59,301 nucleotides of DNA from the IMG/VR virus record IMGVR_UViG_3300028800_000104, positions 1-59,301 of that record. The stretch is one strand, 5' to 3'. The first letter of the stretch is position 1. Every line of letters starts with the position of its first letter. Of the stretch, positions 1,754 through 36,880 are shown in pieces. This DNA is from a virus. A program made the position numbers and the translations under genes. The notes below the pieces were generated by a model, which worked only from the letters and a program-made list of their open reading frames with translations, made no database searches and was not told the origin of the DNA.

Positions 1754-1887
1754 ATGAAGACGACATCATCGAGGCACGTCGACGAGCGGCAGAATACTGC
1801 CGACTCGCGGAAGAATACTGCCCGCGCGGCGGCTTTCTCCTGGGCGATCTCTGCGGCGAAAGAGTGATGGAAGTACGACAGGACTAG
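1750..1887 (+). CDS. small hypothetical protein
   Basis: 45 aa, rich in Glu and Arg, with two 'AEYC'-type segments and a third Cys (C17, C24, C35 region). ATG overlaps the stop of the ABC-GNAT gene (ATGA), a classic coupled start. Its stop meets the stop of the minus-strand ASCH gene, with a 4-base convergent overlap. No family recognised. Confidence 0.55.
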   Translation: MNEDDIIEARRRAAEYCRLAEEYCPRGGFLLGDLCGERVMEVRQD

Positions 1888-2294
1888 AACAGACGGCCAG
1901 GCGCGATCTCAGCCTCAATGCCGCGCGGCAAGACGTCACGCAACAGGCGATGCGGAACATCAAACATACTCAGCTGTCCCTTGTAGGGAACCGGTCGCAA
2001 CAGGGCGCGGGGATTCGCGAGAACCAATTTCCACTCGCTCTCGGCATCGGCCCACTGCGAGCGCGACGTGCGCACGCAATCGATCAACGTGACAACGCCG
2101 ATCAGATGACCAAAGACGAGTTCGTTCGCAGGCAGATCGAGGATGCGGCGATCGCGCTGTGCCGGTACGTCGATTTTCTTGCTGGCGTGGATCAGCAACA
2201 GACCTCTGTGACTAAAGTAACGCGAGCGATTCTCGACGTCCTTGCCGAGCAAAATGGCATTCGCCCATGGCTGGCGGATCGAAAGAGCCTTCAC
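1884..2294 (-). CDS. ASCH-domain protein
   Basis: 136 aa with a GTG start. The N-terminus 'ALSIRQPWANAILLGKDVEN' is the hallmark of ASCH-domain proteins, a PUA-like beta-barrel fold that binds RNA or acts on modified nucleosides. 'FGHLIGVVTLIDCV' matches a central strand. It is the last gene of the minus-strand cluster. The start is fixed by hairpin/SD cassette E1, whose AGGAGAA lies 5 bases before GTG; no other in-frame start has a comparable RBS. The substrate is unknown. In phages such proteins often lie near nucleotide or DNA modification genes. Confidence 0.75.
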   Translation of the reverse strand: MKALSIRQPWANAILLGKDVENRSRYFSHRGLLLIHASKKIDVPAQRDRRILDLPANELVFGHLIGVVTLIDCVRTSRSQWADAESEWKLVLANPRALLRPVPYKGQLSMFDVPHRLLRDVLPRGIEAEIAPGRLF

Positions 2295-2320
2295 AATGTT
2301 CTCCTGCCGCTGGTAGCGGC
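2295..2320 (-). promoter_or_regulatory. hairpin/SD cassette E1 (ASCH leader)
   Basis: In mRNA sense the stem-loop GCCGCTACCAGCGGC (2320-2306) is followed directly by AGGAGAACATT and the GTG start. The stem has six pairs around ACC. It is one of six near-identical leaders in this cluster. Confidence 0.8.
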
Positions 2321-2321
2321 T

Positions 2322-2696
2322 TCATTTCGCATGGCGTATACGATGACAGTTCGCACAGAGCACATCGCATTTTGCGATCTCGCGAATGAGTGCCTGCTTG
2401 CTTCGATGTCGCTCTGCGCCTATACAGAACAATTTGACACCCCTCGCGTGATGAAGATCCATGCAGCACAGGGGGAATCTTTTTCCACAATCAGCACAAG
2501 GTCGATCTTTGGCGACGTTAATAAGTTGTTTCGCCACCCGTTTCCGACTCGCTCTGGAACGCGCCTCGGTCGCCACTCCCTTCGGAGACTTTCTATATCT
2601 CTCTCGACGCGCCTTGGCCTTTGGCGAATTGACGTAACGTCGCACCGCAGGCGCAGTCTTGGCGTACTCTCGATAGTTTTCGTTGCTCAGAGTCAT
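2322..2696 (-). CDS. HNH endonuclease-like protein
   Basis: 124 aa. The basic N-terminal half (many Arg/Lys, 'SPKAKARRERYRKSPKG') precedes a zinc/HNH motif: CADCGKRF, then 'MDLHHARG' (HH of HNH), then LCANCHRIRH at the C-terminus. The spacing (two CxxC pairs around the HH) fits HNH nucleases in which zinc holds the beta-beta-alpha fold. It lies inside the minus-strand MoxR/VWA cluster without the hairpin leader. The ATG at 2696 has no strong Shine-Dalgarno, so the start is less certain. It could be a homing-type insertion or a cluster component. Confidence 0.75.
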   Translation of the reverse strand: MTLSNENYREYAKTAPAVRRYVNSPKAKARRERYRKSPKGVATEARSRASRKRVAKQLINVAKDRPCADCGKRFPLCCMDLHHARGVKLFCIGAERHRSKQALIREIAKCDVLCANCHRIRHAK

Positions 2697-2783
2697 GGGA
2701 GTTATGGCCGTCTTACGCCCGGCCTGCCCGGTACCACCCGGGACGTCTCGGAGGCGCAGAGAAACGCAGCACCTTGCCGAAAA

Positions 2784-3746
2784 TCAAACGTGAGCGCGAC
2801 GCCTAATTCGCTGCCCACGGCGAAACTTACGATAACACTCAACACAGAGTCCGCGGCTGTGATGCGGGGCGTTTTTGTGTTCGCAGGTATTCTCCGACTG
2901 GCGATCGCCGAGTTGAGCATTCAGGATAGCAAGTTCTTTTGTCCTGGTCTCTTCGCGTTGGATGGCGAGTTCCCTGGCGGCGCCGAGCACTCGTTTAATG
3001 TCTGCGCTCGATCGCGGGGCGAGGAGTTCAGAATCAAGACGGATCAGCGCATCCCGCACCCCGATGCCAGCGGCGAGATGTTCGAAGTATTCACTGGAGT
3101 AGTGGCGCGGTCCACCCTCTTTGGCCCATACCTGCTTCAAGTAGGCGGCGAGTGGCTTCTGGGTGACCGCGTCGAAATTGACTTTCAGACAGCGACTCAA
3201 GAATCGCGGCAAGAGTTCAGCCGGCGGTTGCATCTGGCCGTCGACCATGCGCCCATTGCACGTGAAGATGTAGATGATGGGCGGGACGTCGCCGCGTTCG
3301 AAACCACCGCCATACATGGGCTTGAGACAGGCGGTCCCGTCCATGCGCGACAACAGTTGCAACTGCGCCTTATCGGTGGCCCCGTCGACCTCGTCGACAT
3401 GAACAACGTGAAAACTCCCGCGACGTGGGTAATACTGACAATCTTCCCAGATGCGATCGAGAGTCGCGACGTCAGCCGACTGCGCCCGAATGTGATGGTG
3501 AGCAGCTGGCAATTGTTCACAGAAGCGAATGGCCATCGTAGTCTTGCCGCATCCAGGCGGCCCGACGAAGAGCAGGGCGCATGGCTTCGGCTTTTGCAAG
3601 AGGCCCAACATGACGCGCTTGGGCTCCTCGAGGCCGACGAAGTCCTGCACGCGCGGTTGATACTTCTCTGCAAGGGTGACGGGGAAATCGAACCCATTCT
3701 GACGGGCTTCCCCAAGATCGATCGACGTTTGAACAGCGTTTCCCAT
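2784..3746 (-). CDS. AAA+ ATPase, clamp-loader-like, with zinc tail
   Basis: 320 aa. 'EKYQPRVQDFVG' (28-38) resembles the start of RFC/DnaX/RuvB-type AAA+ modules. Walker A is GPPGCGKTT (62-70) and Walker B is VVHVDEVDG (114-122). 'QLLSRMDG' and 'IIYIFTCNG' follow, as in clamp-loader sensor regions. The C-terminal 35 residues form a separate Cys/His tail (CEHK...GLCVECY) followed by a very basic end, suggesting nucleic-acid contact. The start is set by cassette E2. No partner subunit or sliding clamp is seen in the window, so it may remodel a partner from this cluster rather than load a clamp. Confidence 0.75.
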   Translation of the reverse strand: MGNAVQTSIDLGEARQNGFDFPVTLAEKYQPRVQDFVGLEEPKRVMLGLLQKPKPCALLFVGPPGCGKTTMAIRFCEQLPAAHHHIRAQSADVATLDRIWEDCQYYPRRGSFHVVHVDEVDGATDKAQLQLLSRMDGTACLKPMYGGGFERGDVPPIIYIFTCNGRMVDGQMQPPAELLPRFLSRCLKVNFDAVTQKPLAAYLKQVWAKEGGPRHYSSEYFEHLAAGIGVRDALIRLDSELLAPRSSADIKRVLGAARELAIQREETRTKELAILNAQLGDRQSENTCEHKNAPHHSRGLCVECYRKFRRGQRIRRRAHV

Positions 3747-3773
3747 TTCATTTCTCCTGCCGCTGGTTGCGGC
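3747..3773 (-). promoter_or_regulatory. hairpin/SD cassette E2 (clamp-loader leader)
   Basis: GCCGCAACCAGCGGC (3773-3759) then AGGAGAAATGAA and ATG. The stem has five pairs around AACCA. The hairpin begins directly after the stop codon of the upstream gene. Confidence 0.8.
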
Positions 3774-3959
3774 TCACTTCTCGAAATCTGTCTTGCCCTG
3801 TTGGCGTTTCTGGAAAATTGCCAGGCCTCGATCGGCAGCCTCTTGCATGGCCGCCAGACTGATACGGTTTTCACAATAGACACCGATCAGCCGGGCAGTC
3901 ATCTTGCCCTCTTCGGCCACGCCTGCGGTGATGACAGCCAATGCTTGTTTGCGCGTCAT
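3774..3959 (-). CDS. small hypothetical protein
   Basis: 61 aa, predicted mostly helical (MTRKQALAVITAGVAEEGK). It starts right after the stop of the 121-aa gene (TAGATG), so it is probably translated by re-initiation. Its stop abuts cassette E2. No family recognised. In other bacteria, short helical proteins of this look are often DNA-binding or adaptor proteins, but nothing here proves it. Confidence 0.6.
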   Translation of the reverse strand: MTRKQALAVITAGVAEEGKMTARLIGVYCENRISLAAMQEAADRGLAIFQKRQQGKTDFEK

Positions 3960-4325
3960 CTACGCCTTCAATCTGTGAGACAGCTGCGCAGTCCACGATT
4001 TACAGTTCTGATCGATCGTCGGCTTGCCGTCGACCTCGACCCACGCCGCCTTGGCCTCTTCGACGCTTCGATAACTCATGTCGATCAAGTCGACGACGCC
4101 GTCGCTGCCGACGACGCCGATAGCGTAGTTGGTTCCACCTTCGATGGCGATCAGGGTGTCTTCACCATCGCAGTTTTGCAATCTGACAATCACGTACTTG
4201 CGAGACGGGATTTCGATCGCGTCGCGCGGGATGGCAGCGTCAAGGGTGGGCGTGGGCGTTGTATCCGCTTCGGTGATGCGCAGCAGTTGGCGGATGGTGG
4301 ATACGTCAGGCAGTTGCTTCGTCAT
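3960..4325 (-). CDS. hypothetical protein of the MoxR/VWA cluster
   Basis: 121 aa. A helical N-terminus is followed by a beta-rich middle ('KYVIVRLQNCDGEDTLIAIE', 'NYAIGVVGSDGVVDLIDM') and a short helical C-terminus. No catalytic motif is evident. The start is defined by cassette E3. The next gene begins immediately after its stop codon. Function unknown; its place in the cluster suggests an accessory role. Confidence 0.65.
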   Translation of the reverse strand: MTKQLPDVSTIRQLLRITEADTTPTPTLDAAIPRDAIEIPSRKYVIVRLQNCDGEDTLIAIEGGTNYAIGVVGSDGVVDLIDMSYRSVEEAKAAWVEVDGKPTIDQNCKSWTAQLSHRLKA

Positions 4326-4352
4326 ATTGTTTCTCCTGCCGCTGGTAGCGGC
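4326..4352 (-). promoter_or_regulatory. hairpin/SD cassette E3
   Basis: GCCGCTACCAGCGGC (4352-4338), identical to E1, followed by AGGAGAAACAAT and ATG at 4325. Confidence 0.8.
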
Positions 4353-4358
4353 TCTGAT

Positions 4359-4781
4359 TTACTGATTACACTCTTCGCACAACACACGCCCGTCGACTTC
4401 GACGAACGAAAGATCGTTATGGTCTGTACAGCGCGCCTCGCCGCATTCTGCGCAGACGAACTCGGCATTTTCGCCGCAGGATCGTTCGACGCGACCGCCA
4501 GCAACAAACCACAGTTTGCTGCACTGGCGTGCTTCCTTGTCGAGCCAGACCCACGCCTGCACCCAAATGCCATCGTCGGCGATACTGCTGCGGCACTCGG
4601 CGTCGAAATCCATGTTGACGTTCGAGCCGTATTTGTAATCGCGCCGCGCGCGGGTGATTTCTTCCTCACTCGCGAACGTGATCGTCGCCACAAACTGTTT
4701 CAATGTGGCGATGCGTGCTGCATACTCGGGCGCGTCGGTGTAGATATCGGATTGCAAGATTTCGAGAATCTCTTTTGTCAT
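4359..4781 (-). CDS. zinc-binding hypothetical protein
   Basis: 140 aa. The N-terminal half is helical, the middle beta-rich (IWVQAWVWLD). The C-terminal third carries paired cysteines, 'FVCAECGEARCTDH' and 'VLCEECNQ' at the very end, a likely zinc ribbon. The start is set by cassette E4. The upstream 64-aa gene ends inside the start region (ATGA), so E4 is also coding sequence for that gene. Family not recognised. Confidence 0.65.
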   Translation of the reverse strand: MTKEILEILQSDIYTDAPEYAARIATLKQFVATITFASEEEITRARRDYKYGSNVNMDFDAECRSSIADDGIWVQAWVWLDKEARQCSKLWFVAGGRVERSCGENAEFVCAECGEARCTDHNDLSFVEVDGRVLCEECNQ

Positions 4782-4972
4782 TTTGTTCCTCTTGCCGCTG
4801 GTTGCGGCTCTGGGTTCAGCAAGTCGTGGAACGCGCAGTCGACGGCGTCTGGATATCGCTCCAAGACAAATTCGATATCCTCGGTGGGCAGATTTGCGAC
4901 AAGCGCCAGAGCGGCGGTGACGCGTCGCGAACGGCTCATGTGGTCGGCGATGTCTTCTTGGATGTCAATCAT
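4778..4972 (-). CDS. small hypothetical protein; 3' end encodes cassette E4
   Basis: 64 aa, acidic and helical. The last residues 'PEPQPAARGTK' are encoded by hairpin cassette E4, so this end may be a by-product of the regulatory element rather than a selected peptide. It starts 4 bases after the stop of the VWA gene (TAAGGCGATG), implying coupling. No family recognised. Confidence 0.6.
   Translation of the reverse strand: MIDIQEDIADHMSRSRRVTAALALVANLPTEDIEFVLERYPDAVDCAFHDLLNPEPQPAARGTK
4782..4808 (-). promoter_or_regulatory. hairpin/SD cassette E4
   Basis: GCCGCAACCAGCGGC (4808-4794), as E2, followed by AAGAGGAACAAA and ATG at 4781. It lies within the 3' end of the upstream gene. Confidence 0.75.
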
Positions 4973-4976
4973 CGCC

Positions 4977-6125
4977 TTAGACCCTCACTCTCACGGTTTC
5001 GCCGAACGGGCCGCGCAGACTGCTCGCCTCGGTCGTCACCCACAGAACTGGATAGCCAGGCTCGACGGGCGCCGGTCCTTCCAGATCAGTGAAGTAAATG
5101 AGCGCGGCGGGTTCGGTCCCGTCAGCTGCGACGCGATCGAAGACGGGCTGGAATGCCGTCCCGCCGCCGCCGTGTGCGCCCAAGGTGATCTCGGGATCGT
5201 CAGGGCTGAAACTCTCGGCGTGGCAGACGGCGCTGTCACAGTAATAGACGTCAACGCCTTCCGGTCGCGCCTCGTGGAGAATCTGGGTCAACTCAGACGC
5301 GAACAGATTCAACTCGCGCGCGCCGATGCTGCCAGACGTATCGATGCCGATCGCGAGGCGGGGCATATTCTCGCGGACGGTACCGGGGAGGTAGATGCCC
5401 GCCGCAATGTAACGTCGGTTGGGTTGCGTCCAAGAGTAGTCGGACGGGACAGTCTGCTCGACAAAGCGGCGCAGAATTTCGCGCCAATCGGTCTCAGACT
5501 CTCGCGAGGATTTCACGGCGCGATCGACGTCGCCGGGAAGTCTGCCCGCTTTCTTGGCGATCGCCGTCGCCTGTTCGGTGGCAATCTGCCAGTCGGTCGC
5601 GGTCATCTCTTCTGCGGCGTCGCCACCCTGCTCGCCGTTTTCGTCGCCCGGCTGCGGGGCAACGACCTGGCCGGGTTGCTCGCCGCCCGTCTGATCGTCT
5701 TGCCCGTCGCCGTTCTGCTGTTGCTCTTGTTTCTTGCGATCAAGCAGGGCGTAAATCTGATCCGCGCCCATGCCCTTGTATTGCGCGTCGCGCAGGCAGT
5801 TGTCGGGCAGTGTAAAACCCTGCTCGGCGAGCAATTCGTTAATGGCAAAGTCGGTCGCTTCGTTCCACGTTTTGAGATCGCGCCCGGCGATGCGATACGG
5901 ATGCAGCAGGGCGCAGTGCATGACCTCGTGGGCAATAACGCCGACCAGTTGGTCGTCAGTGAGAGACTCTACAAACTGCGGGTTATACGACAGGCGCGTG
6001 CCGTCGGTTTGCATGGTCTTACAGGCCGCCTCTTGAACGTCGAGGCGCATTGACAGTGATCCGAACCATGGCGAATCGAGTAGCAAGCGAGTACGGGCGC
6101 GGGACATGCGGACGTCGGGAGTCAT
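4977..6125 (-). CDS. HExxH metallopeptidase-like / VWA domain protein
   Basis: 382 aa. The N-terminal part holds a zinc-peptidase motif, AHEVMHCALLHP (65-76), followed by a WNEATDFAINELL helix, as in the DUF2201-type putative metallopeptidase domain. A low-complexity, Gln/Gly/Asp/Glu-rich linker (about 130-185) follows. The C-terminal third is a VWA-like domain with a MIDAS start, DTSGSIG, that would bind a metal and a partner protein. The ATG overlaps the stop of the DUF3150-like gene (TAATG). VWA proteins of this type pair with MoxR AAA+ ATPases, which is exactly the arrangement here. The likely role is ATP-driven remodelling or metal insertion on an unknown target. Confidence 0.85.
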   Translation of the reverse strand: MTPDVRMSRARTRLLLDSPWFGSLSMRLDVQEAACKTMQTDGTRLSYNPQFVESLTDDQLVGVIAHEVMHCALLHPYRIAGRDLKTWNEATDFAINELLAEQGFTLPDNCLRDAQYKGMGADQIYALLDRKKQEQQQNGDGQDDQTGGEQPGQVVAPQPGDENGEQGGDAAEEMTATDWQIATEQATAIAKKAGRLPGDVDRAVKSSRESETDWREILRRFVEQTVPSDYSWTQPNRRYIAAGIYLPGTVRENMPRLAIGIDTSGSIGARELNLFASELTQILHEARPEGVDVYYCDSAVCHAESFSPDDPEITLGAHGGGGTAFQPVFDRVAADGTEPAALIYFTDLEGPAPVEPGYPVLWVTTEASSLRGPFGETVRVRV

Positions 6126-6994
6126 TAAACGAAGTCCCCCATTTCTTTCAAGATCGTTTCCGCAGCATTTGCCGTCTGTTCTCGCGCGGCATCGTTCTCG
6201 CGCAACTGTTCGGCGCTCAATCCGCACAATTCGGCGTCGATACGTTTCGCAAATTGCGCGAGTTTCTTGTCCTGCGTGATGTTCAAAGTGGGCAGCATGT
6301 CGATCAGTTCGCGGATATTCGTGACGAGCGAGTCGCGGAAGGGATTGGCGACGCCATCGTTTGTCACAGAGTAGGCGCGAAGGCGATCGACCATCCTCGC
6401 TACGACGTCTCGCACGCGCTCCCAGACGTCTGCCATCGCGATGCGAAGCGATTCGTTGACCGATTCCTCGATCTCAGAACGCACCATCGCCGTTTGATCG
6501 TCGCCCAACTGCACTCGAAAATCTTGGGCGGCGGGAATCGGTTGCACTTTGAATCCGAAAGAGAACTTGCCGCGCATCTGGGCGAATCTCGGATAGTCGT
6601 CCTCGCGGAAAAGCCCGTTCAAACGGACGCGGGCCTCGGCGACCCATTGCGGATACTTCGTCAGGAACTCCGAGACGGCGGCATCCCATTCGTTCTCAAG
6701 TTCGCGCATCCGTTTCGCATAGTCGAAGTAGCCTTGGGCGGACAGGATGCGGACGCCGCCATCGGACCATGGCAGCGTGCGGTTGTAATGTTCGTGTCGC
6801 GCATTCGACGTGATCTGGCGAAGGCGTTCCAGCGATTCTTTCGTGACAAGCAATTTCTGGTAGCGACCCATGTTGACGTCGGACTTGTGGGCACGGGCGA
6901 CTTCCTGCGAAATCGCCTTGTCATGTTTCGCACCCATCCACTGTTGAATGTTTAGGCTGACTAACATCGCGCGTTCTGTGATTGAATTTTTCAC
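6125..6994 (-). CDS. DUF3150-like protein
   Basis: 289 aa from GTG 6994, chosen because cassette E5 sits at the same distance as in its sister genes. An in-frame ATG at 6967 is the alternative. 'LNIQQWMGAKHDKAISQEVA', 'RTLPWSDGGVRIL' and 'FREDDYPRFAQMRGKFSFGF' match my memory of DUF3150 proteins, found beside MoxR and VWA genes in phages and proteobacteria. The C-terminal half is long helices and may form a coiled coil. It lies between MoxR (upstream) and VWA (overlapping downstream), forming a three-gene unit. No enzymatic motif was noticed; probably a structural or adaptor partner. Confidence 0.8.
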   Translation of the reverse strand: MKNSITERAMLVSLNIQQWMGAKHDKAISQEVARAHKSDVNMGRYQKLLVTKESLERLRQITSNARHEHYNRTLPWSDGGVRILSAQGYFDYAKRMRELENEWDAAVSEFLTKYPQWVAEARVRLNGLFREDDYPRFAQMRGKFSFGFKVQPIPAAQDFRVQLGDDQTAMVRSEIEESVNESLRIAMADVWERVRDVVARMVDRLRAYSVTNDGVANPFRDSLVTNIRELIDMLPTLNITQDKKLAQFAKRIDAELCGLSAEQLRENDAAREQTANAAETILKEMGDFV

Positions 6995-7022
6995 TCTGTT
7001 TTCTCCTGCCGTTGGTGACGGC
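6995..7022 (-). promoter_or_regulatory. hairpin/SD cassette E5 (DUF3150 leader)
   Basis: GCCGTCACCAACGGC (7022-7008) then AGGAGAAAACAGA and GTG. Compared with E1, stem pair 5-11 has changed from C-G to T-A on both sides, a compensatory change. The ACCA loop is kept. Confidence 0.8.
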
Positions 7023-7025
7023 TTG

Positions 7026-8024
7026 TTAGAACACAACATCGGAATGCTTAACGGCCCACTTCGTAAATTCGGGCGTGCTGGTGAGAGACGCGTCGCGAGT
7101 CGTGGCGTCGCGGATCGCCATGACGTTGAACTCCTCGGGCAGTCGGTCGAGATATTGCAGAACGCGGCCCAAGTTTCCGGGTTGCACGCGACGCGCAAGA
7201 GCACTCGAAACGGCGTAGAGCGTCGACGCCTCACTCGGGACGGGCGAGCCCGTCGGGTTGAGCAGAATGGCATCGATCGACGGCAACGAGCGATACAGTT
7301 TCAGAAATGCCATGTAGTCGATCGCAGCGGCGTGCCCCACGGAACCCGCGACCAAAGCCAGTTCGATATCGGTTGTCGGTTTCTGGGCGGTGATGCCCGA
7401 CACGAAACTCCACGAACGCGGCGAAGGGAACGCGCGGGAGTTTCGATCGAACTTGTGCAGCAGCTCGGAGCGGAATCTCAGGAACGCAATAACGACGGGT
7501 TCGACGTTGGCGGTAATCGCCCACTTGCACCAGTCGTCCAAATCGGGTTCTACGTTGATGTGAAGGAAACGATTGCTAAGGGCGCTCGACATTCGAGAGA
7601 CGCCGCCGCCGTCGGACTCGCGGTTGCAGGCAGAGACAACCCGCCATCCGTCCGGCAAGGTGTACTCGCCGAGTTTGCGATCGAGCACGAGTTGGAAGCA
7701 GGCATTCTGTACCAGCTGCGGCGCGCGGTTCAGTTCGTCGAGAAACAGAATGCCGCTGCCGTCGCGTGGAAGAAATTCTGGAATCGCCCAATGCGCTCGG
7801 CCGTCGCCGTTGACATGGGGAAGTCCGCGCAAGTCGACGGGGTCAAGCAAGACAGCGCGAACGTCCTGGCACGCGAGCGAAAGACGCTTCGCGGTTTGCT
7901 GCACGATCTGAGATTTGCCGATTCCGGGTTCGCCCCAGAGGGTTACGGGTTGGCGAGCGTTGATGCAATACTCAAGCGCATTCGACACTTGAGAGGGTTT
8001 CAGGTTGATCTGTTCAGTTGTCAT
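7026..8024 (-). CDS. MoxR-family AAA+ ATPase
   Basis: 332 aa from ATG 8024, fixed by cassette E6; the frame is open further upstream but without an RBS. Walker A is GEPGIGKSQ (31-39), Walker B is GILFLDELNRAP (91-102). Sensor-1 Asn lies in SACNRE (132-137) and an arginine-finger candidate in ALSNRF (148-153). 'DPVDLRGLPHVNG' fits the MoxR/AAA_5 insertion. It is the first gene of the minus-strand cluster and heads the MoxR/DUF3150/VWA unit. MoxR proteins act as chaperones with VWA partners. A weak promoter-like pair (TTGTTT, 16 bases, TAGAAT at 8064-8059) lies upstream. Confidence 0.88.
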   Translation of the reverse strand: MTTEQINLKPSQVSNALEYCINARQPVTLWGEPGIGKSQIVQQTAKRLSLACQDVRAVLLDPVDLRGLPHVNGDGRAHWAIPEFLPRDGSGILFLDELNRAPQLVQNACFQLVLDRKLGEYTLPDGWRVVSACNRESDGGGVSRMSSALSNRFLHINVEPDLDDWCKWAITANVEPVVIAFLRFRSELLHKFDRNSRAFPSPRSWSFVSGITAQKPTTDIELALVAGSVGHAAAIDYMAFLKLYRSLPSIDAILLNPTGSPVPSEASTLYAVSSALARRVQPGNLGRVLQYLDRLPEEFNVMAIRDATTRDASLTSTPEFTKWAVKHSDVVF

Positions 8025-8051
8025 TTCGTTCCTCTTGTCGTTGGTAACGAC
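8025..8051 (-). promoter_or_regulatory. hairpin/SD cassette E6 (MoxR leader)
   Basis: GTCGTTACCAACGAC (8051-8037) then AAGAGGAACGAA and ATG. Two stem pairs (2-14 and 5-11) differ from E1, and both are still Watson-Crick. The ACCA loop is kept. Confidence 0.8.
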
Positions 8052-35419: not shown

Positions 35420-36880
35420 ATGAAAACACTGATTGCAGTCACAACCTGTCATGGCTTCCGCGATCGCGCCGATGCCGTGCGCAAGACATGGGCGCCGGAA
35501 GTTCAGGGCGCCGACGTCCGATTCTTTCTCGGCAACGGCCCAAAACAGAGAACTGACGAAATCATCCTGCCTTGTCCTGATGGATATCACTTTCTTTCCC
35601 AGAAGACACAAATGATCCGGCGCTGGGCGCTCGAAAACGGGTATGAGTATCTCTGGAAGATTGACGACGACACTTACCTTCGGCCCGAACGTCTTCTCGC
35701 TAAAGACTATTCCAGCATGGACTATGTCGGTCGGCTACGCGGCCCCTCTGGCAACTACCGTTCCCCTTATTGTTCCGGTTTCTGTTATGGCCTCAGCAGA
35801 AAAGCTCTAGAAATCCTCGCCCCGATTCAGTGGGGCATGAATGAGGATTTCTCCGAGGATCGCTGGACAGGCAATCAACTGCTCGCCCACGGCATAACAC
35901 CGTGTCTCGAAAGTCAGTTCGTCGTCCAGTCTTCCAAGGCGAATGCGATCAGCGGGCGCGAGTCTCCCATGGTCGGCAATGCCGTGATTTCTTCCTGTGA
36001 ATACGCGCCGGAAAAGATGTTGCAGGTTCACAAGCTGTTCAAGTCTCGGGCGCCATCCAAGATCGGCCCCTATCAGGCTCCGACCGGCTCGCTTTCGCGC
36101 GTGTGCGTCATGGTCAAGACCTTCCTGCGCGACGGCTTTCTCTTCGCCTGCCTCGACGGCCTCGAGAAGAATTTTGCCGACTGCAAAATCGTCGTCGTCG
36201 ATGACGGGTACGAAGATGGCAAGAAAATCACGCGTGCCGCAGATTTGCGCAGCAAGGGCCACAGTTGGGACGTTTTGCCTTTTGATTCCGGCTTCGGCGC
36301 GAAGGCAAACCGGGCCATCGACCACTGCGATCGCGAATATGTACTGATCGCATCGGACGATTTCAACTTTGACGATCCAGCCGTCCGGCCTGGCGTCGAG
36401 GCGATGCAAAAGGTGCTCGATGCCGTCCCATCTCTGGCTCTCGTCTCCGGACGCGTCGACGGAAATCCCTACGAGTTTTGTTGGGAAACAGGCGAACGCA
36501 GTCTGCGCGAAGTCCCGGGCTATCACGATTCCGGCGAGATCGACGGCGTGAGATATCACATGTGCGATCTCACGGTTAATTACTCGCTGATCCGGACGAA
36601 AGTCTTCCAGCCGCAACACGGCGATATCCGTTGGGATGGCGGTGATGTGAAGATTGGCGGCGGCGAGCACTCGGCGTTTTTCGTGGATCTGCAGCGTACC
36701 TATTGGGGCGTCGCTTATGTCGAGGGCGCCAATATCAACCAGTTGCCGCCCAACTATAAATGGCAACACAAGGACTATCCGGCGATGCGCCGGCGGGCCC
36801 GCACGATGGGACGTCCGTGTCTCAAGAAACGCGGCATTGACGTCTACGTTTTAGGTGACGGGAGCGCGGAGATTTCATGA
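35420..36880 (+). CDS. two-domain glycosyltransferase
   Basis: 486 aa. The N-terminal domain (1-170) starts MKTLIAVTTCHGFRDRADAV, with WKIDDDTYLRP (79-89) holding the DxD metal/nucleotide-sugar motif, like GT31/Fringe enzymes. The second domain (about 228-486) is GT2-like: 'CVMVKTFLRDGF', 'IVVVDDGYEDGK' and 'VLIASDDFNFDD' give the two Asp motifs. A fusion of two glycosyltransferases fits the building of a short glycan. It follows the fibre genes, so virion proteins or the host surface are possible targets. RBS is weak. The next gene starts by ATGA overlap. Confidence 0.8.
   Translation: MKTLIAVTTCHGFRDRADAVRKTWAPEVQGADVRFFLGNGPKQRTDEIILPCPDGYHFLSQKTQMIRRWALENGYEYLWKIDDDTYLRPERLLAKDYSSMDYVGRLRGPSGNYRSPYCSGFCYGLSRKALEILAPIQWGMNEDFSEDRWTGNQLLAHGITPCLESQFVVQSSKANAISGRESPMVGNAVISSCEYAPEKMLQVHKLFKSRAPSKIGPYQAPTGSLSRVCVMVKTFLRDGFLFACLDGLEKNFADCKIVVVDDGYEDGKKITRAADLRSKGHSWDVLPFDSGFGAKANRAIDHCDREYVLIASDDFNFDDPAVRPGVEAMQKVLDAVPSLALVSGRVDGNPYEFCWETGERSLREVPGYHDSGEIDGVRYHMCDLTVNYSLIRTKVFQPQHGDIRWDGGDVKIGGGEHSAFFVDLQRTYWGVAYVEGANINQLPPNYKWQHKDYPAMRRRARTMGRPCLKKRGIDVYVLGDGSAEIS

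Follow-up and report, generated by a model that had tools for sequence, protein, structure and literature searches.

We report a putative RNA-based control system of soil phages, which we identified in a 59,301-base IMG/VR virus record (IMGVR_UViG_3300028800_000104; the whole of this stretch is termed the window below). It has two components: a small hairpin leader, present in six copies directly ahead of the Shine-Dalgarno sequences of genes in a single cluster, and one structured RNA element of about 75 nucleotides (nt), which we term the partner element. We consider it probable that leader and element together constitute a kissing-loop system controlling the translation or stability of phage mRNAs. 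The observations behind this proposal are the structure and covariation of both RNAs, their co-occurrence across phages, their positions relative to genes, and the concerted variation of their two loops.

The leaders are characterized by the consensus GYCGY-NACCA-RCGRC, followed by ARGAG and a start codon, with all six copies on the minus strand. An earlier, sequence-only reading of the window had placed six hairpin/Shine-Dalgarno leaders here and none elsewhere; both claims hold, as all six were found and a search for the 20-nt consensus GYCGYNACCARCGRCARGAG, tolerating up to three mismatches, gives these six sites and no others in the window. Shuffled windows contain 0.42 matches on average and at most 2; a chance origin of the six leaders is thereby rejected. 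Each hairpin is followed by AGGAG or AAGAGG, with the start codon about 11-13 nt past the stem, and most copies directly adjoin the preceding stop codon; one (leader 3) overlaps the 3' end of an upstream 64-aa open reading frame (ORF). The stems are GCCGC/GCGGC in four copies and GCCGT/ACGGC and GTCGT/ACGAC in one each, the matched changes being as first described. The loop had been given as ACCA: this core stands, but the loop is of five rather than four nt, namely NACCA, with T, A or C at its first position.

The covariation of the stem extends well beyond the window. In scans wherein chosen stem pairs were left free, we counted fully paired stems among matches with and without a start codon: with pairs 2 and 5 free, these amounted to 20 of 27 matches with a start codon versus 1 of 17 without, and with pairs 1 and 2 free to 21 of 30 versus 2 of 14, these counts taking in several copies per phage (five in the phage L029). 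The scans yielded the new pairings GCCGA/TCGGC, GACGC/GCGTC, CTCGC/GCGAG and CCCGC/GCGGG. A covariance model further recovered sibling copies from the same phages that lie outside the search pattern and have pair 1 or 3 flipped; in some of these the loop has 7 or 8 bases and retains ACCA, the loop length thus ranging overall from 5 to 8 nt. Taken together, compensatory changes are seen at stem pairs 1, 2, 3 and 5, along with two G.U pairs. Conversely, when the stem was fixed and the loop left free (GCCGC-N5-GCGGC-AGGAGA), ACCA was by far the commonest loop, with 14 matches on 10 contigs, all of which are followed by a start codon. A stem varying without restriction around an ACCA loop was also considered and rejected, only 4 of 119 being fully paired among the matches listed, which is near chance. 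Since the stem sequence and the loop length vary while the ACCA core is constant, the leader is best understood as an RNA rather than a DNA operator. Selection on its RNA structure, argued previously from the window alone, is strongly supported by the stem-free scans, the siblings with flipped pairs and the G.U pairs.

The partner element was recognized as a conserved stretch shared by the window and another leader phage, L028, between a clamp-loader-like gene and the next open frame. It comprises three hairpins, P1, P2 and P3, with a pseudoknot formed between the joint of P1 and P2 and the loop of P3. Of 25 records with leaders, 11 contain a single copy of its core, GGGTGGTACC, and 1 contains the reversed pattern; one of the 11 matches (L530) is probably due to chance, the true element lying elsewhere in that record. 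Covariation in an alignment of ten sequences is 0.42 versus 0.18 in shuffles, and 0.61 versus 0.215 in one of 21 sequences (0/500 shuffles), the latter alignment having been fitted to the structure and thus leaning towards it. The pseudoknot likewise covaries across phages, with CGU/ACG swapped for CCU/AGG and GGU/ACC. Single element sequences are not unusually stable relative to shuffles; hence, the case for the structure rests on covariation. Neither leader nor element was matched by any of 4227 Rfam models, and from these comparisons the element is a new structured RNA class absent from that database. Where a cassette has an identified leader, the element mostly begins at the stop codon of a leader-bearing gene or no more than a few bases from it. 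Pairing of a CUCC in the internal loop of P1 with the Shine-Dalgarno site was entertained and dropped, as its conservation is insufficient. In two phages (L526 and L534, of G013 and G024) the gene directly behind the element resembles an IS1595-type transposase at its protein start, on reading the sequence.

Leader and element are found together to a striking degree. Using model R2 at E < 0.001, we detected the element in 19 of the 28 records that carry leaders and in 2 of the 46 control phages (Fisher p ~1e-9), and one of these two controls itself has an AACCA hairpin leader. With model R3, about 3.85 million bases of fetched loci gave elements from leader phages and, beyond these, from L511 alone; the latter phage, found by its element, has leaders as well. 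An Acidobacteriota genome retrieved via the element alone likewise carries, at a distance of 1.4 kb, an ACCAA hairpin that precedes a Shine-Dalgarno site.

The two loops also change in concert. The P2 loop of the element is mostly GUGGUA, complementary to the (U)ACCA of the leader, and in the three phages whose leaders have AUCA it has UGAU instead. One of these, G024, has two cassettes, wherein TACCA accompanies GUGGUA and CTAATCA accompanies UGAUA. In L511, two leaders with the loop ATATCAA on different 4-bp stems go with the element loop GUGAUGA. In G017, AATCA is the loop of six leaders, each with a different stem; UGAU was predicted for its element before any was known there, and an improved model then found one with the loop CUGAUAA. 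Overall, 21 of 23 leader-element pairs are complementary and fall into two co-varying classes, which is reached in 0.06% of trials when leaders are shuffled among elements (permutation p = 0.0006). A second element copy in G010 (L557, 185-258, minus strand) has the P2 loop UUAGUC, which predicts a leader loop with GACUAA; no leader was identified for this copy.

Of 52 leaders, 10 have a good sigma-70 promoter with a -10 box ending 5-11 bases upstream of the hairpin (0.3 in shuffles), such that the hairpin would open the transcript. Leader 1 of the window is a case in point: the predicted promoter TTGTTT-16-TAGAAT ends 7 nt upstream, and the hairpin would begin at the 5' end of the mRNA. Most of the window copies are internal to the cluster, with neither promoter nor ribozyme. 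A different arrangement is seen in L029 (record IMGVR_UViG_3300032770_001058), wherein a type I hammerhead-like ribozyme lies ahead of each of five leaders, and cleavage would bring the hairpin near a new 5' end. Four of these have intact cores (CUGAUGA...GAAA...UH; 0.05 expected), stems I and III align, and stem III shows compensatory changes. Stem II has 1 bp, a form reported as active for another hammerhead (PMC3088659). The ribozymes are not called by Rfam. Such cores were seen in L029 only, the window and the other leaders examined being without them. A pseudoknot is possible in these ribozymes between UCCCG upstream of stem I and CGGGA in loop II. In L461 and L032, a promoter lies about 34 bases ahead of the hairpin, and the intervening stretch GGGTGGTGACCCACACC may form a hairpin of its own. 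G017 (L622-L625) is a low-GC phage with plus-strand leaders at 36614, 37575, 42404, 42656, 55656 and 56557, several of which directly follow TTGACA promoters overlapping inverted repeats, GTTATCAAAATAAC, that are probably repressor operators.

We picture the system as follows. The leaders would be cis-acting hairpins at or near mRNA 5' ends, directly upstream of an exposed Shine-Dalgarno sequence, and would work with the one structured element carried in the same gene cluster: the leader loop (ACCA or AUCA) would kiss the P2 loop of the element (UGGU or UGAU). Such pairing would take place in the cell, mainly within one transcript, and would change expression. As the hairpin directly precedes the Shine-Dalgarno sequence, a kissing complex would border the ribosome landing site; we would guess that this bulky structure lowers ribosome loading or decay. 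P1 often begins at the stop codon, so that a ribosome terminating there would melt the element and free the leader. On account of these two points, we favor a contact that reduces initiation or decay until translation opens it. The opposite sign, with the contact acting as an enhancer loop as in plant RNA viruses, is nearly as likely. A still broader claim, which we advance tentatively and would not yet wager on, is that these phages possess a two-part switch of a kind unknown in DNA viruses or bacteria: multicopy leaders would kiss a single post-stop RNA, using a loop code particular to each phage (ACCA/UGGU or AUCA/UGAU), with termination on one gene setting initiation on several.

Several points weigh against a kissing-loop system. 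A single element is shared by as many as six or seven leaders; this sits uneasily with strict one-to-one pairing in cis and suggests that the genes compete or that the element acts in trans. The paired stretch is merely 4-5 bases, and the leader stems of L511 are only 4 bp long. The element loop of G016, ACGGUA, misfits its leader, though it could still pair UACC with GGUA; that of G015, GAGA, misfits too, in a weak match that lacks P1. Nine leader-bearing records, some of which are short fragments, have no element match. The control phages were not host-matched, and a shared lineage or host may explain part of the co-occurrence. Moreover, some of the phages behind the structure models R2 and R3 had been chosen for the leader, and one of the 21 training sequences of R3 has UGAU, so that this search was able to accept a UGAU loop while not requiring one.

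Other explanations account for parts of these data. The hairpin could be a mere 5'-terminal stabilizer and insulator that shields the mRNA 5' end from decay and keeps the Shine-Dalgarno site free, with the element an unconnected trait of the same group of phages. Stem-loops at the 5' end do stabilize bacterial mRNAs (PMC7509114), and the hairpin lies at a predicted transcription start in about ten leaders and just behind the ribozyme cores in L029. A stabilizer, however, needs no conserved loop, whereas no part of the leader is more conserved than its loop, which changes only when the element loop does; nor does this explanation suit the cluster-internal copies of the window. We regard it as unlikely. 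More doubtful still is that the leaders are operators for a phage or host RNA-binding protein that reads the AYCA loop, much as RNA-phage coat proteins read ANYA loops, with the element loop a decoy or a coincidence. The invariance of AYCA across many unrelated genes would fit such an operator, but the complementary changes in the element, matching those of the leader loop, would not, and no protein common to the leader phages was found. The ASCH-like protein, which had been suggested as the RNA-binding partner, is not supported in this role: on the contigs searched, which are mostly partial, homologues turned up in no more than a few leader phages, whereas most of these phages have a complementary, co-varying partner RNA.

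The dyad symmetry, the single orientation and the proximity to promoters, which in G017 overlap inverted repeats, might alternatively point to DNA operators or transcription-stopping sites like the L5 stoperators, double-stranded DNA sites bound by a repressor. This is very improbable given that the loop ranges from 5 to 8 nt with the stem kept, that G.U pairs occur, and that the motif is tied to the Shine-Dalgarno site even within an upstream coding region. Finally, the element string GGGUGGUACC resembles the core of the T-box riboswitch, which has a stem I specifier and a UGGN antiterminator; conceivably, the element might sense tRNA ends (UGGN with tRNA NCCA) and the leaders mimic them. The UGAU variants, which go with AUCA leaders, cannot pair with the ACCA end of a tRNA, and the Rfam T-box models gave no match; because of these variants we reject this reading, which we hold to be the least probable of all.

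A scan of IMG/VR with the leader consensus returned 38 contigs, in about 16 of which the motif lies 6-11 bases ahead of the start codon of an open frame. Across more than 20 uncultured phages, relatives of the leader precede genes unrelated to one another, including DUF932-like genes, clamp loaders, many small proteins of no known function and one gene that reads as an ATP-dependent ligase. Bacterial genomes gave 92 consensus matches, nearly all of them chance; the two exceptions are a phage contig in an Acidobacteriaceae bin and a Fimbriimonas bin. The sole leader among 396 Acidobacteriota genomes is on that same phage contig. A host-wide leader is rejected, the motif being essentially absent as a leader from both sets, and by these searches the leader belongs to phages, some of which have Acidobacteriota hosts. 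The INPHARED isolates yielded neither a convincing leader nor an element match, and both were lacking in Tunturi_1, the only phage of Acidobacteria that was examined. Querying with the clamp-loader protein as a single sequence gave no matches. The sequence-only reading had named loss of the leaders from related clusters as evidence that would count against them; the clamp-loader orthologues in the window (GCCGC), L028 (GTCGC), L010 (GCCGC) and L208 (GCGGT) all keep the leader, three of the four having different stems.

Two further leader types were noted in passing. A second multicopy family is found in L245, L248, L257 and L260 (also L225 and L252): it has a constant stem, GCCGC/GCGGC, before AGGAGA, the loops CGAGC, CAAGC, CCAGC and CATAG, and a conserved stretch upstream, GCGCGTGCTGCTCGGGCTGTT. 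In L141-L144 and L157, DUF932 genes have another conserved leader, GACCTGACCGAACTACACGCGGCAGGCAAAGGAG, possibly representing a further hairpin-leader class.

The window encodes a terminase, portal, head protease, capsid and integrase; hence, its source is a tailed phage, probably a temperate one. The cluster that carries the two RNAs is summarized below. The gene identities first proposed are upheld by Pfam for the MoxR-like and clamp-loader-like ATPases and weakly for the DUF3150-like protein; the ASCH-like assignment lacks such support, a Pfam search having given nothing, and comes from reading the sequence only. An HNH-endonuclease-like reading frame (2322-2696, minus strand), assigned by motif and likewise without result in a Pfam search, is inserted between the partner element and the ASCH-like gene; L028 is without this frame, its ASCH-like gene directly following the element.

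Table. Leaders, partner element and genes of the cluster (window coordinates), with the ribozymes of L029 (coordinates in its own record)
Feature	Position	Strand	Remarks
Leader 1, GTCGT-TACCA-ACGAC	8037..8051	-	then AAGAGG, ATG (8024), MoxR-like gene
MoxR-like ATPase gene, AAA_5	7026..8024	-	leader 1; Pfam
Leader 2, GCCGT-CACCA-ACGGC	7008..7022	-	then AGGAG, GTG (6994), DUF3150-like gene
DUF3150-like gene	6125..6994	-	leader 2; Pfam match weak, just under cut-off
DUF2201 metallopeptidase/VWA gene	4977..6125	-	without own leader; start overlaps DUF3150 stop
Leader 3, GCCGC-AACCA-GCGGC	4794..4808	-	then AAGAGG, ATG (4781), 140-aa gene
140-aa gene, function unknown	4359..4781	-	leader 3
Leader 4, GCCGC-TACCA-GCGGC	4338..4352	-	then AGGAG, ATG (4325), 121-aa gene
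121-aa gene, function unknown	3960..4325	-	leader 4
Leader 5, GCCGC-AACCA-GCGGC	3759..3773	-	then AGGAG, ATG (3746), clamp-loader-like ATPase
Clamp-loader-like AAA ATPase gene	2784..3746	-	between leader 5 and partner element
Partner element, three hairpins and pseudoknot	2705..2783	-	first base directly follows the clamp-loader stop codon
P2 hairpin, CCCGG-GUGGUA-CCGGG	2727..2742	-	loop 2737-2732 holds UGGU, complementary to leader ACCA
P3 hairpin	2706..2724	-	pseudoknot of loop GGCGUAAGA with CGU of the P1-P2 joint
Leader 6, GCCGC-TACCA-GCGGC	2306..2320	-	then AGGAG, GTG (2294), ASCH-like gene
ASCH-like gene	1884..2294	-	leader 6; without Pfam match
L029 type I hammerhead-like ribozymes	upstream of leaders at 1810, 2407, 3075, 4383, 5864

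Since 2011 it has been known that sequences can be repeated at the starts of phage genes, and these repeats have gone unexplained. A start-site repeat that is an RNA hairpin with an identifiable RNA partner makes their function testable, and the element can be searched for in other phages as a new structured RNA class. If the proposal is true, phage operons would use a 5'-3' RNA communication so far tied to plant RNA viruses and to plasmid copy control.

The closest parallel among phage features, drawn already by the sequence-only reading, is with the start-associated sequences (SAS) of cluster K mycobacteriophages, which have the 13-bp consensus GGGATAGGAGCCC, and their extended form (ESAS), for which the original authors found little support as RNA hairpins (PMC3203893); a similar repeat is present in cluster EF Microbacterium phages (PMC7302621). 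Like these, the leader is a short repeat at the ribosome-binding site, present in several to many copies in one orientation, associated with non-structural genes regardless of gene identity, and not found in the host. The parallel stands as an analogy but not in the motif: the leader consensus shares AGGAG alone with that of SAS, and whereas ESAS are 17-bp imperfect inverted repeats, the hairpins described here covary and have a partner RNA. As to mode of action, the systems that come nearest are the kissing loops of plant RNA viruses and of plasmid rep genes. In Tombusviridae and similar plant RNA viruses, the 5' untranslated region forms kissing loops with 3' cap-independent translation elements (3'CITEs) through YGGCA:UGCCR (PMC7592216). 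There, too, a 5' hairpin and a 3' structured element have complementary loops, as do 21 of 23 pairs in our set; however, these are eukaryotic plus-strand RNA viruses wherein the 3' element recruits initiation factors (eIF4E) or ribosomes, unlike the double-stranded DNA phages with Shine-Dalgarno initiation, several leaders per element and another loop sequence considered here. The rep genes of IncB/IncI/IncK plasmids, with their switches of RNAI/stem-loop I kissing and a pseudoknot (PMC10724649), offer a bacterial precedent for translational control by loop-loop pairing; in that case an antisense RNA is transcribed from the same DNA with full complementarity, in contrast to two unrelated structures that would pair through 4-5 loop bases and act on many genes. 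The hammerhead cores ahead of the leaders in L029 fit the proposal that phage and prophage hammerheads cut phage transcripts to single-gene mRNAs (PMC3088659). Thus, while it has features in common with each of them, the leader-element system belongs to none of the SAS repeats, the plant-virus kissing loops and the plasmid rep switches.

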